Positions 47,974-57,855 of a DNA stretch of 64,000 bases are shown piece after piece (position 1 is the first letter of the stretch; each line of letters starts with the position of its first letter). Where the stretch lies: the NCBI GenBank assembly GCA_009869945.1, contig WIXG01000008.1, forward strand, positions 248,001-312,000. The letters are read 5' to 3'. The position numbers and the translations under genes are program-made. A model generated the notes under the pieces. It was not told the origin of the DNA and ran no database searches. It was given only the letters and a program-made list of their open reading frames with translations. This DNA is from Mesaphorura yosii (taxonomy: Eukaryota; Arthropoda; Collembola; Poduromorpha; Tullbergiidae).

Positions 47974-48079
47974 TTGAACTGAACATAACATGAGATGCAT
48001 TGAGGCAAGCGTGAAAGCCAAACGAATAGCCAATTACAATAAAAGTTTATTGCCAAGTAACCATACGTCAAGAAACAAG

Positions 48080-49704
48080 TTATCTTCTCAGCATGCGCAA
48101 ATACAGTTGCAATAGAGCGAGGAGCCCAAGATTGACTCCACTTGTCCCGGCACCGCTGTTTTCTGTCGTTGGATCCGCTTCTGTCGTTGGATCCGCTTCT
48201 GTCGTTGGATCCGCTTCTGTCGTAGTTGGCTCCGCTTCATCTGGAGGAGCTTGACCACAGACCGCCCGGTTTCGATTGACTTTCACAGCCATTTCAATTA
48301 TGTTGCTCCCCAGAAAGAAATCGGTGGAAACGATCATCGTGCGAGAGTACCACTCGGGACGCTGCCACCAGAACGTCAGTGGAATATTGGTCATCTGTGC
48401 AAAGCCACGCAGGCCTAACAGCGGGTACAAAATGTAGTCGGAGGTCTTGGGCGTCATTTCGGCCTGCGAGGACCAAAATATGCCTTTGCATCCATATTCA
48501 GGCAGAGCCACATTGGCAAAGTAGTCTTCCAGTGGCTGTACTTTGTTCACGTCTCCCCAAGCCTGCAATAGGCAATAAAATCTATAAACCGTGTCGACAC
48601 CACTTTTTCTGACTACGCACGACGTACATGAATTAAATACGGCCATAGAAAATCGTATTTGCTTCGGATGTCGTCCCGTTGATAAGTGAGTATCACGTTT
48701 TTCTTTAGATTCCAGACGTCATTCAGCGTCAAATTCATAGTCGCATTGCTTTTGTGGATAAGGAGATTGCCAACGTGCTCCTGAACATATTCTACGAGTT
48801 CCTCATGCCGTTCGACATTGTCCATTCCAACGGGGAAGCCATGAAAATCCATGAAAATGAGTTCGTTTGTCTCGGTTACGAACTTATTGATATCGTCAAA
48901 TAGAGTAATCAAGGGCGCGTATCGCGCGTTGCCATGATTAATCCAAAACTTTTCGTCTGTTTCTGGATAGTGGGCCACACGCATGTCCAGGTACCGGACC
49001 CCGTGCACGAACTGCCGGTACAATTGTTCCTCTTGGCAGACCGAATACCGTACATTGAGGGGGTCGGATGCGACGGGATCATACTCTTGAATGGCACCTG
49101 CGTCATGAGTTCCTGGAATCATCAGAGAGTGGAGTGGGATGTCACCAATTATGTCCTTCAGATCATTCATCCACGTGGGGTACTTTCGGAAGCAGTTGGT
49201 AAGCAACGGGACCGAGCCTCCGTTCACGATTTTCATGTAGCTGATCCAGTAGCCCAGGCAGTTATCCCCGTCCGATGAACCATTTAACGGTGGGCGTCCA
49301 AATCGTATCGATGTCTTAAAGTATCCGTCTCCTGCCGTTAGTAGGACAACAGCAAGAGCAGATGCCTTATAGTCAAAGGATGGTTCCACTGAAGCCGGGT
49401 CCAAATTGAACAACCCAATCCAATCGTCGGAGTCGGGGGCCGGAAACCTGGCCCAGTTCAGCTCTATCATCGTGTCCTGAATGACGCCATCGACAGGAGG
49501 GTCCACGACGGGACTGACTGTTACGAACACTTCGGGCTCAGTGAACAAATCTGAGAAAATTTAATTGACGAATTCATTGATTGTGTCACGCGAAAGAATG
49601 CCCGCCAAGAACTATAGTCACTCACCCTGAACTGCATTGACATGCGTGAAAGTAGTAAAAATCAGGAACGCACTGAAAAGAAACAGGACACTGGGTCCAC
49701 CCAT
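48080..49704 (-). CDS. Secreted PI-PLC X-domain protein
   Basis: This resembles PLCXD-type phosphoinositide phospholipases that have only the catalytic X domain. The exons are 49704-49626, 49550-48628 and 48562-48080, giving 494 residues. A signal peptide (about 1-25) is followed by an N-terminal beta-rich domain with WIGLFNLDP. The X domain has the two active-site His regions, HSLMIPGTHDAGA and FWINHGNARY, and EELVEYVQEHVG. Near the C-terminus is a Thr/Glu/Asp-rich repeat, then a small-residue region and a short hydrophobic end (LGLLALLQLYL), which suggests a GPI or tail anchor. The EF-hand, PH and C2 domains of signalling PLCs are absent. Confidence 0.88.
48162..48232. repeat. 18-base coding minisatellite
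   Basis: Three near-identical copies of an 18-base unit (plus strand TCTGTCGTTGGATCCGCT) and one diverged copy lie in tandem inside the last exon of the PLC-X gene. They encode the six-residue unit TTEADP. The identity of the copies points to recent slippage or unequal exchange, so copy number is likely to vary between individuals. Confidence 0.85.
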
Positions 49705-51658
49705 ATTAAGAGGAGACTCAAAATTCGGATGTTTCAGAAGTGAACCGAGCTAAATGAAGCTTCTGCCGAGCGGCGAACCTGGCCGCATTCGATCAAGTGG
49801 AATGGAGTCCAAGTGTGAACTATCACGCCCCTGTTCCCAGCTAATTAATTGAAGTTTGACATGCCATAAGCGAGACCAATCATTCGCGTCTCAAAGGCTC
49901 TTGAATCGTGTCACATTCGCATATACGTTCGAGTGTCCTCACTGCATGTGATGATTCTTCGGCGATACTGCATTGGTGATATCGGCACACTGTCGCATTT
50001 TGTTACATAAAAATTTTTGCAAGACTTGCCATGGCGTGGCGAACAATGCTGATAAGGAGCGAAAAATGAGAAGCTTCAATTGAATATTGCGGAATTTGCT
50101 GTCATGTCTAGCGCCTAGCCATCAATCCCATCGCACCATTATACTCGTATGGAAAGTATGGATAATTTATGCCAAGTCGTCATGCGCTTGATTTTACTAG
50201 AATGCTGCGTTAAACACGAGGCATATGCTACAAAGCTTCCGTGATTTTCGCTTCCACACGTTGGGTGTTACCAAAGCAGTTCCAGCCGACACCGACCGTC
50301 TGACTGCCATTCTAACGCAAATCAAGCCTCCATTAACGGTCACACCTAGAATGAAATGTGATATGACGTGAGTCTTTTTTTTCATTGAAATATGGCGTTT
50401 AAGACTGGGTACTCTGTGCTGCATCTTTGGCATTGCAACCTGCATACTTGCATGTTGCATCGCAATCGCACAACGACCACGTTCTCACAGGGTGCCCAAG
50501 CCCGTCTCAAGTTTCTCATGTCAAGTCCAAGTGCAAGTTCACACTTTCTTTGCTTTTGCCCCTGACTTGGCCTGACTTGGCCTGACTTAACTGCACTCCG
50601 TTCCGTTACTGTCATGGGTTGCCAGTTCAGTAACTGTGTAAAATAAAATGTCAACTCTGTATTTATGCTTTTCACACGACTCGTATTGCACTGACGACGC
50701 TGAGATCATGCTCTATGCGCCATGCACTTTCTATTCTATTTCTACGCGAGCTCCATGTCAAAAGCCACAGCCGAAGCGAAGCTGTGTTTATGTTTGTACT
50801 TTAACCCCTTCCAGACTCTGACTCTCTTCTTGCCTTGCGAGCTCGAGTTTCGTCAGTTTCTTACGTTGGTTCGCTGCTTAGCAGCTTATTGACTTAAATC
50901 AGCCTAAATTAGATAAATAAGTGTAAATTTTATCAAATGCATTACTCACACATGGCTGAGCATTGTACGCAAATGCAAGTCGAGTCCATTAGTCGCCTTG
51001 CCATATTAATGCGCCTTGCCCTTGAATGGACTCAAGACAAGAACAAGACATCGGAATAGACGACACGTACGTGATGTCTGAACTAAATGGTAAATGCAGG
51101 GCGAGTTTCAGTCGTACTCCTGTTCTTGACTTGTACTCGGCTTGTATTTTCTCATGCTCATGTCTTTATCACGCATTACATCGTGTCCAACATAAACTTA
51201 ACTTGGTGTCTGTCTTGTCTTGCCTGCTAATCGCAACACTTTCTTGGTCGTAAAAATTCTTGCTGATAGATAAACTGTGAAGTGAGGAACTGACAATAAT
51301 TCGAGTCTGAAGTTCCGCGTGGGTTACGTAATCGAGACATCGGCGGCGTGTGGCGGCAGCTGAAACTTGACCAGGCCAATTCAATTCAATGCCAATCACG
51401 AATGAAATGACGAACGTTCGATATTTTCATTTATTAACCGACCCAATTACTGAGACTCAGTGCTGAGTGGTTTTGGCTCGTGAGGAATGTGCGCTTGTAC
51501 TTAAAGGAGAATAATAAGAAATGGTCCACCATTCAACTTCAACATGCTTGATTTCCTCGTTCACACTTAAATTCAGTTTCATTGATTGGTGAGTAGTGAA
51601 TTTTCTGCAAGTGTCACAATTGAACAGAACCAGAAAAAAGCAACGCAAAAACCTCAAC
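49705..51658. other. Gene-free stretch
   Basis: Nearly 2 kb upstream of both flanking genes, with no exon chain recognised. It contains a short tandem of the 10-base unit CCTGACTTGG at 50561-50588 (nearly three copies). The promoters of the PLC-X and ACE-like genes should lie at the two ends. Confidence 0.45.
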
Positions 51659-53870
51659 ATGAACTGCAACTGGAAATTCTTACTTGGCCTCCTTTGCATG
51701 GTTTTCGTCTCCATCACGCTTCTGGTCGTCTTTCTGAGCAACAAAAGCGATAGCGATAGTGGCGGTCGCGAAGGGAAATCTGAGACCGGCAGCAGTCGCC
51801 GAGCGACGACCACAAACTTGGCGTACAGTGAAAGCGAAGTGCGGGCAAACGCGTTTGTGAGGAGTCTCAATGAAAAGTTGATTCAAGAATGTGAGCGGCA
51901 CGCCACAGCGGTTTGGAACGCGAAGCTCCAAATTCCAGACGCGAACCGGTCAAGGCAAGCGTATTTGGACAGCCTAGCCCATCGACAACGATTCGTATCC
52001 GCCGTTCTTCAAAGTGGGGCCAAACTGGATGCGATCGGCACGGACTGGCAATCATATCAGAACGAAACCTTAAAGAACCTCGTGCATCAAATTCTTGTGT
52101 CTGGAGCGGCCGTCACGGCGCAACAGCAGAACGACCCAAACGGATTTCACTTTCTTAGACTCGCCCAATTCGAAGAAATGTACCGGCATCGAATCGTGAG
52201 GATCATCGACCCACTCCTGCAACAAATCGACGAGTCGGAGTTCGAGGAGGCGCAGCTGGGCGGTCCAAAGCCGAGCACTTCTCATGCGCGCATTCAGCTT
52301 AACAAGAAAATTTGGATTCAGTTTCATGATGAGATGGGGCAATTTGTACGCGATGAGATTTATCCGGAGACGATACAGATTCTACAACGAGAGCTTCACG
52401 GCAGTGAAGGCAACCGCAACGGTCCTGTCCTTGGAACTGCAACGGAGGAAGAGTTCACGACCTTCAGCAGCTACTATCACACGATGCAATCTGAACTCGA
52501 CGCAATCCTCGAGAAGATTCGCCCTCTCTACACTTTGTTGCATGCACACGTCCGTGGCACTTCACGCGAAGTGCAGAAGACAGCTGCGCCGGGAGGTCAA
52601 GCGCAGATCGCGTCGAACGGTTCCATTCCAATGCACGTAATCAGCGCTTTCGGAAATTGGGTTCACTCAAAAGACGACGGAGCGCCATTCGACCAGATTC
52701 AGATGGTGCACATCACGCACAACATCGACAAGAAGAAAATGAGTCTCGAGCGGCTGCTTGATGGTGTAAATGAATTGTTCCTGTCTCTCAATCTAACGAC
52801 TGGCGATGATAACGGGCTTCCGGAGTCATTCTGGTCGCAGTCCGAGCTCGTGAGCCGTTCTGTTCAGGACGACAGTGGTGATTACGAGACAGCCTGCGAC
52901 GACGTGCTGGACGTATGCCGAGTCGATAATTACAAGACGGTGTTTTGCGACGACGTCTCGTACGAGAACTTTCGAGATTTTCATATCAAACTGGGCACCA
53001 TTAAATACATGATGATTGCTAAACCTGGACTCACTCTACCGAGTCGTGGAATCAATCCCAGTAAGTCAAACCCATTCCGTGTTGTGCCAGACGTGAGTTC
53101 TTTCTAATTATTCACCCGTTTTTCCATTCTTATTTCCAGTTCTGCTTCACGCCAACGGAATGGTTTGGAATCTGCTCTCCGCATCACCGCAATACATTGA
53201 CGGACTCAACATTTGGCACCACGAAGACTGGCAACGCGAGGAGGCGCTCCCTCACGACTTCACCGCAACAGTAAACTTCCAGTACAACCAGGCACTCGCC
53301 GTTTTACCACGCATGATGGAGTTCATCTCACAGCAGAAGTGGCTGGCGTCCGTGTTGGCAGGCAAATCAAAGGTCAATTCGTCAAACTGTGAGTACTGGC
53401 GATGGCGAGAAGAGCTGGAAGGAGTTCAGCCGCCAGAATTACGACGAGCATCGCAACTTGACGGATTTGCGGCTCTGAAGAACCCGCGGAAGCTGTACGA
53501 GGCATTTATTGGGGACATTATTGGGTTCCAGCTGCATCGAACCCTCTGCGAGGTGGCAGACGAGTATGTGCCGCTGGCCGCCGGTTCCATCGACTCTGGG
53601 CAGGAAGACCCCGCTTACAAACCTCTCCAACAATGTGATATCAGTAACAGTAGTTACGCTAGTAAATTATTACTTGAGTTTATGAGCATGGACACGACAA
53701 AACCACTACGGGATGTTCTGTACCAAGTGACAGGATCGGCTAAGATCAGCGTCGATGCGCTGCTAGACTACTTTGAGCCTTTGTACCATTTTCTGAGTTC
53801 GAATAACTTAAAGAGTAAGTTCCCGATTGGGTGGGATAACAAAATGAACAATTATCCGAGCTGTATTTAA
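51659..53870 (+). CDS. ACE-like membrane protein lacking zinc ligands
   Basis: This is a homologue of angiotensin-converting enzyme (peptidase family M2) that looks catalytically dead. The exons are 51659-53060 and 53140-53870, giving 710 residues. A short cytoplasmic N-terminus is followed by a membrane span at about 7-28, so it is likely a type II or signal-anchored protein, followed by a Ser-rich stalk. Family landmarks are IRPLYTLLHAHVR, SIPMHVISAFGNWV, IGFQLHRTLCEVA, CDISNS and DALLDYFEPLYHFL. The HExxH zinc site is replaced by HIKLG (about 442-446), and the downstream GFHEA is LLHAN, so the second His and the distal Glu are lost. It resembles nematode ACN-1 in this respect. A poly(A) signal lies at 53877-53882, right after the stop. 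Confidence 0.88.
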
Positions 53871-55019
53871 TTTGTAAATAAAACCAACTTTCTTTAACTG
53901 CTGTGTATTTTAATAGGTCGTGCTCTTTTCACCACTAGCAATAAGGGCTGTTGGTATTTTGGGCTGGATTTAAGCCAAGCCTTGGAATTTATTAGGCCAC
54001 GAACCACGATGACATTGTACAATTGAACGAGGAAATCCAAACATAAACAAATCAATCCGAATGATGGTAAGCTTCTGAAGGTTGACGCACAAAATCCAAA
54101 TCTTCAAGCTTCAGTCGCCGCGCGCCCTGCCCTGCATGAGGCGGTCGTCCGAAGCTGTGTATCGTATCGTATTGCAATCAGGAAGTTTAAAGAAGTATGT
54201 TCTAATTATAAAATAACGCAACAATGAGTTGGCAGTTTGCAATTATTGTCAGACAATGCAAGAATGATGAGTAGTTGCTAATTGTGCGTGCAAATAAAAG
54301 CGTAAACTAGACAATGAAATGCTTGCATGCATGCGAGGGTTGTAATTTTAATTAAAGTTGAGCCTTTCCTGCTATGCAGTAACAAACGAGTAATTTTAAT
54401 GTAGCAATCATGACAAGCAAGTGCCATCCCAGAACTGGCAATCAAGCAAGCACCTGCGTTACGCAAATGAAAATTCACAACCGGCTCAACTTGGCAAAAA
54501 GGAGGCATCATTGCATAGGCCATTTGCGATTTGCATTCGCGTGGCGATCTGTCAAACTGGTTTACTGCTCGCGTTTACCTCCTGAGAACAAGATATGGAT
54601 CAGTAATACCAATTACATACATAACTCGAATTTGCGTAACACGTGGTCTTGCCCACACTGCCCCTTACCGTGTTTTGGTTTTGGTCATTGCCCGCTCGTG
54701 CAATACCAGAAATGACATTCCCAAGCCAGAAATGCACTTCGACTTACGCATTCGCACACGTAATCTATCGTAATCGCGAGCACGTTCGAGTTGCATTGCG
54801 AATTACGATGCAATGAAGCAAAACATGGCAGGCGCGTAGCGAAGCGAAGAGGCTACATTTCACAGACCTCAGCCTTCAGTTTTCAGTCTAGCTGAATAAA
54901 ATCGTCGGCGACCCAAGTTCAGCTGATCATTTGTGCTTGTGCATTCGACCTCTTCTAACGTATCAGCAACTTTCAATTTCATTAAACCACACTTAACAAG
55001 CCCTCCAGCCCAGGCAAAC
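53871..55019. other. Gene-free stretch
   Basis: After the poly(A) signal of the ACE-like gene, about 1.1 kb holds no exon chain I can support. The short frames on both strands are low in complexity. The lipocalin promoter should be near its right end. Confidence 0.45.
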
Positions 55020-55974
55020 ATGGGTTCATTAACAAGTGCCTTGAATGTGCTGGGCGTCGTCCTCGCGTACATTTTGTTCAACTCCATCGTCTCAACAAAC
55101 GGACAACTGATGCAGCTTGGACCCTGCCCGAAGGTTCCTCCGATGAAGAATTTCAACACGACTGCTGTGAGTCCACGAGCGTCGACCTGATCTGAGGCTA
55201 AACTGGTTTGATTTGATTTTAACTGCACCGTATTAATTAATCTAATTTCAGTACGCTGGTCTGTGGCACGAAGTCGAGAAGTATTGGTTCCTTTTTGAAG
55301 CGACTACTTCCTGTGTGCGAGTTCACTACTTTGAGACGAAAAACGACGACGGTAGCTTCGGAGTAGAAATTAATCAATTTGATAACATGTAAGTAAAGAA
55401 TATGGCTCCTTTTCGGTGCAAGCTGGACATTTACGAGGTATTGATTTTGTTTCTTATTCATTTTTTTAAAGACTGAGAACAACGATGACCAATCCGGGAC
55501 TCACGAGATTCAACAGCGACGACGGAAGCGCAGACCTGATGCTGGACCTTGAAATCACACAGTCGCCAATTCCATGTAAGAAACGCATTTCGGTGTAGAC
55601 AAAGACATATACCCGAAGTTCATGCATTGTAATTTGCAAAATGTTGGTTTCATGACAGTCGTCGTCAAGTACCCTTACATGGTAGTCGACACCGATTACA
55701 AGACGTACACGATTAAATGGACGTGCACGAATACGGGGCCAATGAATATGCGTAAGTATTTGCATGTTACATTTTGCGAGCATTGGCTTCGAATAACATG
55801 CGCACAATTTCGACAATTTCGTATTCACATTTATCAATTTCAGAGAGTCTTTGGATTCTATCACGAACTAAATCTCTGCCACCACAGTCCCGAAAAAAGA
55901 TTTACAACGTGTTGAAGGACGCAGGAATCTCAACGAGTCAGATACGCAAGTCAGATCCAAATCGGTGTTCGTAA
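55020..55974 (+). CDS. Apolipoprotein-D-like lipocalin
   Basis: This is a secreted carrier of small hydrophobic ligands. The exons are 55020-55166, 55252-55388, 55472-55575, 55659-55751 and 55844-55974, giving 203 residues. A signal peptide (about 1-28) is followed by CPKVPPMKNFNTTAYAGLWHEVEKY, which holds the N-terminal Cys and the GxW lipocalin signature. The strands have the expected spacing (VVVDTDYKTYTIKWTC), and the C-terminal LWILSRTKSL carries the conserved Arg. The Cys residues could form the two usual disulfides. A poly(A) signal lies at 56163-56168. The ligand is unknown. Confidence 0.92.
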
Positions 55975-56729
55975 ATCGAAAGTGAAGTTCACGGCAAACC
56001 AGAGCTGACCCTGATTAGTCAATCTTAATTAGTCTAGTTAAATGTTTTGTGTTTTCATTTACCACGTGAATGTTGTTCGTACCTGTACTATATTCTCACA
56101 AACTCTCACTCACTACGTAAGTCAAGTTACGCAATGTCAATGTTATGTTCTAGGTTACGATGAATAAATAATTCCACCGCATTAATGGCATATTTCTATC
56201 GCGTGCTCAGTTCATCCCAGTTGAAAGGGGTGAAAGATTGTTCACATAATCAATTCACTAATACAAGTCAAACGAGAGTGGACAGGTGATTTTATTGACC
56301 AATTTGGCAATGGGATAGGCTCACGCTCACATTCATGCGAATGCGAGTGTGAACGAGTTGAATGACTTTAATGACTTTGACAGTGCTTTGTTGGATTTCA
56401 TAACTGTACTACTTCATTGTCGCACGCAAGCTGAATAATGCGTCAAATGATTTGAATCGCCACATCATCTGTTGCCTTGCTTGCCGAAAATGAGTGGCAT
56501 GTTAATGACGACCAATTTGCCAATTTCAGCAAACAATTTCAAAATCAATAGATGCATTGCAGGTAGGGGGTCCATTCATTTCAAATTCCAATGAGTTTAC
56601 CATCAGCTCGTTGCTCATCCTTCTGCCACCCGGCAAACCTACCTGAGTTGACATCGTCGACCCTTGCCTGGTTTAACATCAATAGCAGGGCGACACCACC
56701 CCAACTTGGACAAACTTCAACCTCTCACC
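55975..56729. other. Gap between lipocalin and NYN gene
   Basis: Contains the lipocalin 3' end and presumably the promoter of the next gene. I see no exon or RNA gene. Confidence 0.4.
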
Positions 56730-57855
56730 ATGCAGTCTTCAAATTCCCGTCGTTTCCGTAAAGCGTCAAAGCAACAGCAAGACTCGGACACTGGAGTAGG
56801 GAACGAAGATGCAGCATTGGCCATAATTCAAGATTCAAGTAAGTCTAACTTTGTGCTGTATCCAGACGATCCTCGCTCATGCTCGGCCTCCGCGTGGACA
56901 TTGGCCATAAACTGAAATTGGCGTGCTTTCAGCGCCAACAACGTCTGATGACTACTCTTCAGCTGATGAAGGCCCAAGAAATAAGAAAGCCAAGCAACTT
57001 CATACTCAATCCGCTCCGATTGCTTCAAATTCAACCGCGCAACTACAAGAAGAGCAATTCCATGAGATCCAGCCGGTTCTGACCAGGAGCGACAGTGATT
57101 CAGACCTCCCCAAACCCGAAACTGACTTTATTTTCGACGAGCAGCTGTTCAACAACATGTTTGCCTCATCCGAAACCCTCTCTCACGACTACTCGCCCGG
57201 CAGTCCACGCCCGATCGTGATTGACGGAAGCAACATCGCGTTCTCGCACGGGAACAACAAGCACTTCTCCGAGCAGGGTATTCTCATTTGTGTCGATTAC
57301 TTTCAGCAGTGTGGTCACGACGTCAAGGTATTTGTTTCGCGTTGTCAGCACGACCAGTTCACGCGCAAGATTGCAAATGATTTGGAGGCACGACAGATTC
57401 TGGTCTTCACGCCAAGCCGCCTCGTGAACGGAAAGAGAATCACTGCGTACGATGACCGTTTCATTTTACAGTACGCTACAGTTAAAAAGGCGATTGTGGT
57501 CTCAAACGATAACTATCGAGATTTGTACGATGAGAATGAGAAGTTTCATGAAGTCATTCGAGAGCGTCTTCTTCAGTTCACGTGGCCCGAGGAAAATGTC
57601 CTCATGTTTCCCAACGACCCGCTTGGGCGGAATGGACCAAGACTGGATGAATTTCTGAAGTTTCCCAGAAATGACGCAAATGAGAAGCCAAGAACGAAAT
57701 CTCGCTCTCGGGAAAGACAAGCTGGAGAAGAGAGTGACTATGAGCAAGATCAAGAACCCGACGCCGACACATCTGGTTATGAATCTTTAGCGTCCACGGA
57801 TGGGGATAGTTGGACGACGGACGACAGCGGGGCGAACAGCGATTTGGATTTGTAA
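56730..57855 (+). CDS. Regnase-like NYN/PIN ribonuclease without CCCH finger
   Basis: This is a probable endoribonuclease of the Zc3h12 / N4BP1 / KHNYN NYN group, which in known members degrades selected mRNAs. The exons are 56730-56838 and 56933-57855, giving 343 residues. An unstructured N-terminus precedes the NYN domain at about 128-270. The acidic active-site residues are in place: Asp in PIVIDGSNIAF (134), the Asp pair in YDDRF (210-211), and Asp in VSNDNYRDL (229). The family-typical FPNDPLGRNGPRLDEFL closes the domain. The CCCH zinc finger that normally follows in Zc3h12 proteins is missing; an acidic Ser-rich tail follows instead. Confidence 0.87.

Follow-up and report, generated by a model that had tools for sequence, protein, structure and literature searches.

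An intact, probably membrane-anchored homologue of angiotensin-converting enzyme without a zinc site in the springtail Mesaphorura yosii

Gene structure and genomic context

The window analysed here is a stretch of 64,000 nucleotides (C8:248001-312000) of the Mesaphorura yosii assembly, which comprises 93.0 Mb in 1127 contigs. On its + strand, positions 51659..53870 hold an intact two-exon gene, labelled C8, that encodes a protein of 710 residues. Exon 1 (51659..53060, + strand) opens with the ATG at 51659 and encodes residues 1-467 together with the first base of codon 468. It is followed by the donor GTAAGT at 53061 and by a single GT-AG intron of 79 bp and phase 1 (53061..53139), which falls at tACE position 408 in the alignment. 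Exon 2 (53140..53870) ends with the stop codon TAA (53868-53870), and the hexamer AATAAA, which resembles a polyadenylation signal, lies just 3' of it at 53877..53882 on the same strand. The coordinates given for the gene in the initial annotation of this DNA were correct.

The C8 frame contains no stop in 710 codons, versus approximately 33 expected from base composition, and the other five frames of the coding sequence contain 22-35 stops. The frame has stayed open despite deep divergence. A DNA search of the assembly for a second copy matched only the gene itself.

Several other features were observed in the neighbourhood. A Zc3h12a-like (Regnase) NYN ribonuclease domain (PF11977, E 3.5e-45) is encoded on the + strand at 56911-57855, and a PI-PLC-X-like protein is encoded on the - strand at 48616-49560, with a PF00388 match (E 0.00043, 20.4 bits) that falls below the family cut-off of 23.1. 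Open frames at approximately 54990-55970 on the + strand resemble, by eye, exons of a lipocalin of the apolipoprotein D type. In the assembly as a whole, the RR cuticle domain PF00379, a mark of arthropods, has 66 matches.

Homology to the M2 family

The C8 protein matches the Peptidase_M2 profile PF01401 (E 7.3e-65), the match spanning positions 2-581 of the 581 in the profile, so that the proposed M2 homology holds for the entire domain. In phmmer searches against PDB chains, C8 matched 6s1y (E 3.2e-40) and 1j36 (E 1.9e-36), entries named angiotensin-converting enzyme (ACE), which we take to be Anopheles ACE (AnoACE2) and Drosophila ACE (AnCE), respectively. A total of 171 distinct PDB sequences match at E 1e-20 or better, and the best 60 of the 171 are all named ACE or ACE2. 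The disulphide cysteines C352, C370, C538 and C550 are kept in C8, which preserves two of the three pairs (C352/C370 and C538/C550), and the MAFFT alignment shows the loss of C152 and C158.

The two exons were modelled separately with single-sequence AlphaFold2, which gave mean pLDDT values of 38.3 (exon 1) and 36.3 (exon 2, 242 residues). The one clearly confident element of exon 1 is a helix at residues 5-33, and the remainder of that model and the whole of exon 2 are unusable. Because the models are of no use beyond this helix, the ACE fold of C8 rests on sequence homology, from which we infer that the protein folds like ACE.

Loss of the zinc site and of the cleft residues

The register of the zinc site was set by phmmer alignment with the ACE chains 9clx, 7q3y, 6s1y and 1j36 and by a 12-row MAFFT alignment, and the two methods agree. 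Both align H-I-K-L-G-T-I-K-Y of C8 with H-H-E-x-G-H-I-Q-Y, and G-I-N-P-I-L-L-H-A with G-A-N-P-G-F-H-E-A. In testis ACE numbering anchored on H383, the substitutions are His383 to Ile443, Glu384 to Lys444, His387 to Thr447 and Glu411 to His471. The equivalent of HExxH is therefore I443-K444-L445-G446-T447 (52985..52999, + strand), the retained histidine precedes the motif, and H471 (53148..53150, + strand) occupies the position of the third zinc ligand. The zinc site had been described as erased with two of its three ligands gone; the erasure stands, but that register was one residue off, and all three ligands are lost along with the catalytic Glu. C8 thus does not carry the residues of an active M2 peptidase.

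A nearby alternative exon restoring HExxH, the case that the initial annotation had raised against its own reading, was looked for in all six frames of window positions 48001-57000 and is absent; neither HExxH nor any of the distal-motif patterns tried was found in this interval.

The changes extend into the rest of the cleft, where C8 shows Q281G, H353D, K511A, a gap at H513, Y520L, R522E and Y523A. All six of the residues that we take to be ACE substrate contacts (Q281, H353, K511, H513, Y520 and Y523) are therefore altered or missing. At 23 positions that we assume to represent the ACE cleft and chloride sites, C8 matches human testis ACE only once (R489), and the other springtail M2 genes without a complete zinc site (described below) match it at 2 (C50), 3 (C227) and 8 (C384a) positions, versus 22 (C390), 16 (C549) and 10 (C150) in paralogues that carry one. 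At the cleft positions conserved in at least seven of eight zinc-site-bearing sequences, C8 keeps 0/10, compared with 50/100 among the remaining conserved columns (Fisher p 0.0018), a test that is partly circular because the four residues on which the finding was based are among the listed positions. When these four zinc and catalytic residues are removed, C8 keeps 0/6 (p 0.028). For columns conserved in all eight sequences, the counts are 0/6 in the cleft versus 25/47 elsewhere (p 0.024), and 0/2 after the same removal (p 0.235, not significant). As judged from the alignment, C8 has lost residues mainly in the cleft; elsewhere, half of the conserved columns and two disulphide pairs are retained.

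In the absence of the zinc, the catalytic base and almost all of the listed cleft residues, cleavage of peptides by the mechanism of ACE is excluded for practical purposes, and the holding of a peptide in the old cleft appears unlikely.

A predicted N-terminal membrane anchor

Residues 7-27 of C8 (FLLGLLCMVFVSITLLVVFLS; 51677..51739, + strand) form a run of 21 residues without charged residues, His, Asn or Gln, the longest such run in the first 60 residues. Its Kyte-Doolittle hydropathy reaches 2.95 over 19 residues, and the maximum past residue 60 is 0.91. The run lies within the AlphaFold2 helix at 5-33, and the ten-residue pLDDT means over residues 1-30 are 69, 91 and 75. The N-terminal membrane span that had been proposed for this protein is thus probable, on account of both the length of the run and its hydropathy. 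The N terminus looks like an uncleaved signal anchor rather than a cleaved peptide, so that C8 would sit in the membrane, most likely as a type II protein. C50 has a comparable N-terminal run (22 residues, hydropathy 2.76). C227, on the other hand, has a short hydrophobic start (1.5) that ends in the signal-peptidase-like TTSA, a cleavage site read by eye. Because this start resembles a signal peptide, the tether is not a mark of all three of these dead genes.

M2 genes in the springtail genome

An M2 profile search of the assembly returned 50 exon-level matches, belonging to at least 11 loci: six with the full zinc site, four without it and one fragment. Those with the complete set of three ligands plus the catalytic Glu are C211, C364, C384b, C390, C150 and C549. 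The loci without a complete zinc site are C8, C50, C227 and C384a. The fragment, C403, lies at a contig end, looks similar to C549, contains an in-frame TAG and was left unscored. Protein searches with C8 and C227 as queries gave no further M2 loci among the best-scoring candidates.

In place of HExxH, C227 reads P-S-L-G-S and keeps Glu411, C50 reads R-I-M-V-R, and C384a reads K-Y-T-G-H and has Asp for Glu411. Which residue C50 has at Glu411 varies with the alignment: it is Arg in that of MAFFT, but sliding the segment RGFEEALVLAL could bring a Glu there. C8 is 19-25% identical to the six zinc-site copies of its own genome (MAFFT), and its identity to C50 and C227 is 20-24% in the 12-row alignment, or 23 and 26% in a three-row alignment.

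Three of the loci have peculiarities of their own. C384a (locus L013, contig C384) is the first of two tandem M2 genes and adjoins a copy with the full zinc site; its gene model requires an inferred GC-AG intron. C549 (locus L010:1421-3370, - strand) is intronless and Gly-rich, has a complete zinc site (HEMGH, FQEAAGD) and looks like an old retrocopy. C150 (locus L017) has an intact zinc site together with H353A, K511S and H513P, and 10/23 of its cleft positions are as in human ACE, which suggests that its specificity is possibly altered.

Codon-position identities were compared with those after ten codon shuffles. For positions 1, 2 and 3, C8 and C227 give 0.419, 0.536 and 0.318 versus 0.380, 0.471 and 0.298 in the shuffled control; C8 and C50 give 0.414, 0.526 and 0.311 versus 0.385, 0.476 and 0.289; and C50 and C227 give 0.382, 0.520 and 0.335 versus 0.366, 0.460 and 0.285, a weak signal of selection because the excess is small and is present at position 3 too. 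Synonymous sites are expected to be saturated between M2 paralogues that are 20-24% identical.

Origin of the dead paralogues

C8, C50 and C227 have the same gene structure: each of the three has one intron, of phase 1, at the common alignment position tACE 408. C390 clearly has this 408 phase-1 intron as well, among the 11 introns of its model, and C384b (11 introns) has the 408 intron next to a 12-base exon that is doubtful. The intron is absent from C211, C364, C150 and C384a. The structure of the trio thus looks like that of a copy that was stripped of its other introns before multiplying.

The protein tree unites C8 with C227 at 96/91. The branch that sets the trio apart from the other rows has a support of 91/90, below the starred level, and carries a long-branch warning. 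The terminal branch of C8 measures 2.61 changes per column, and mutual attraction of long branches is possible among C8, C50, C227 and C549. Five trees were rebuilt without one or two rows; in these, the remaining trio rows stay apart from the others with support between 74/88 (without C227) and 100/99 (without C50), C8 grouping with C50 at 74/88 once C227 is omitted. C384a joins C150 at 98/95 in the full tree and at 90/91 to 97/96 in the rebuilds. Constraining the four dead genes to one clade made the tree 7.6 log units worse (AU p 0.077), so the trees neither show nor reject a single origin of all four. Since C384a groups with the zinc-site-bearing C150, two separate losses of the zinc site are favoured, not proven.

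C50 and C227 are likewise intact genes. They resemble C8 in having no HExxH, in the 408 phase-1 intron and in the loss of cysteines C152 and C158. C50 also shares the long N-terminal hydrophobic run, from which C227 differs by its short, signal-peptide-like start.

Discussion

Based on the results presented above, we consider it likely that C8 is an intact, apparently functional, single-copy gene for a dead ACE homologue, most likely a type II membrane protein, which belongs to an old trio of dead paralogues and would work through protein contacts at the cell surface. Such a protein would have a short cytosolic N terminus, the span at 7-27, a low-complexity stalk and an extracellular M2 domain, which would be glycosylated and disulphide-bonded outside the cell. 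C8, C50 and C227 would descend from one single-intron copy. The domain would act as a scaffold or bind a partner, neither cutting nor holding peptides. By analogy, the reading that assumes least is a tethered M2 shell that acts by contacts with other proteins; the cell-surface role itself is a guess of the same kind.

Dead paralogues regulate active partners in some other enzyme families. It is conceivable, if rather improbable, that C8 is a regulatory subunit that pairs with an active M2 paralogue and alters its activity, stability or location. The genome offers six loci with complete zinc sites as candidate partners; however, C8 is so distant from all of them (19-25% identity) that it is doubtful whether dimer surfaces are shared. 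The available text of PMC5106787 and PMC5201418 describes pseudoenzymes, a dead zinc deubiquitinase among them, that modulate active partners.

A smaller chance is given to a peptide decoy, that is, a C8 protein that still binds and sequesters peptides in the old cleft. The idea has been published for the nematode homologue ACN-1 (PMC9518657, available text), and captopril and the loss of acn-1 each lengthen worm life, direct binding not being shown in the available text of PMC4769152. C8 also keeps the whole M2 profile, but the cleft in which a peptide would lie retains only R489 of the 23 listed positions, and the run of changes from Q281G to Y523A includes every assumed substrate contact.

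The very long branch of C8 might suggest a decaying pseudogene or relic. This is very improbable, as the gene has an intact start codon, splice sites, stop codon and AATAAA, the 710 codons contain neither a stop nor a frameshift, half of the columns conserved outside the cleft are kept, and two dead paralogues are intact too. It is scarcely credible that C8 remains active as a hydrolase by using a different metal site or a different chemistry within the same cleft: the His that replaces E411 and the His kept at 382 are potential ligands nearby, but Lys occupies the catalytic Glu position, no frame of 48001-57000 encodes HExxH, and His382 is presumably not a zinc ligand in ACE.

Returning to a tethered protein that acts by contacts, we tentatively extend the reading to the other dead genes: possibly, an old group of arthropod M2 pseudopeptidases lost the zinc chemistry once, multiplied and kept a conserved extracellular role, some members being N-terminally anchored, unlike the secreted dead ANCEs of flies, with C384a as a second, independent loss. 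If this is true, M2 is a family with nearly as many dead as active copies in one animal, a state reached at least twice separately. In C8, all of the zinc and catalytic residues and almost all of the listed cleft residues are replaced, and its dead paralogues differ in anchoring. The gene makes the function of dead ACE homologues open to test, residual activity being hardly suspected: a C8 phenotype would have to come from binding.

Comparison with known M2 proteins

AnCE and AnoACE2 are active secreted dipeptidases. C8 has the M2 domain in common with both (1j36 and 6s1y) and keeps two of the three disulphide pairs; however, these enzymes carry HHELGH and GFHEAVGD, and C8 lacks both motifs.

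A literature search of titles and abstracts found no paper on springtail ACE genes, and the available portions of PMC9037934 and PMC7071726 contain nothing on dead ACEs. The newness of an arthropod dead ACE, which the initial annotation had implied, does not hold, because Drosophila ANCE-2, ANCE-3, ANCE-4 and ANCE-5 are already in print: the available text of PMC1325048 describes them as being without active-site residues and ANCE-2, -4 and -5 as a highly divergent group, and that of PMC9518657 predicts that ANCE-2 to -5 are not catalytically active. By description, C8 is set apart from them by its N-terminal span, since ANCE-2, -4 and -5 are apparently secreted and in ANCE-3 it is the C terminus that is hydrophobic (PMC1325048, same text). 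An N-terminally anchored dead M2 protein was not found in the open-licence literature, which says little, as the searches were not aimed at anchors.

The available text of PMC4769152 and PMC9518657 describes ACN-1 of Caenorhabditis elegans as an M2 homologue that lacks the zinc-ligand histidines and is needed for moulting, and according to the latter its knockout is lethal. A dead ACE homologue is thus essential in at least one animal (PMC9518657). Compared by description only, ACN-1 and C8 are alike as M2 homologues without the zinc-ligand histidines, and ACN-1, a protein of the moulting epidermis, would by this analogy be the nearest precedent for the role of C8.
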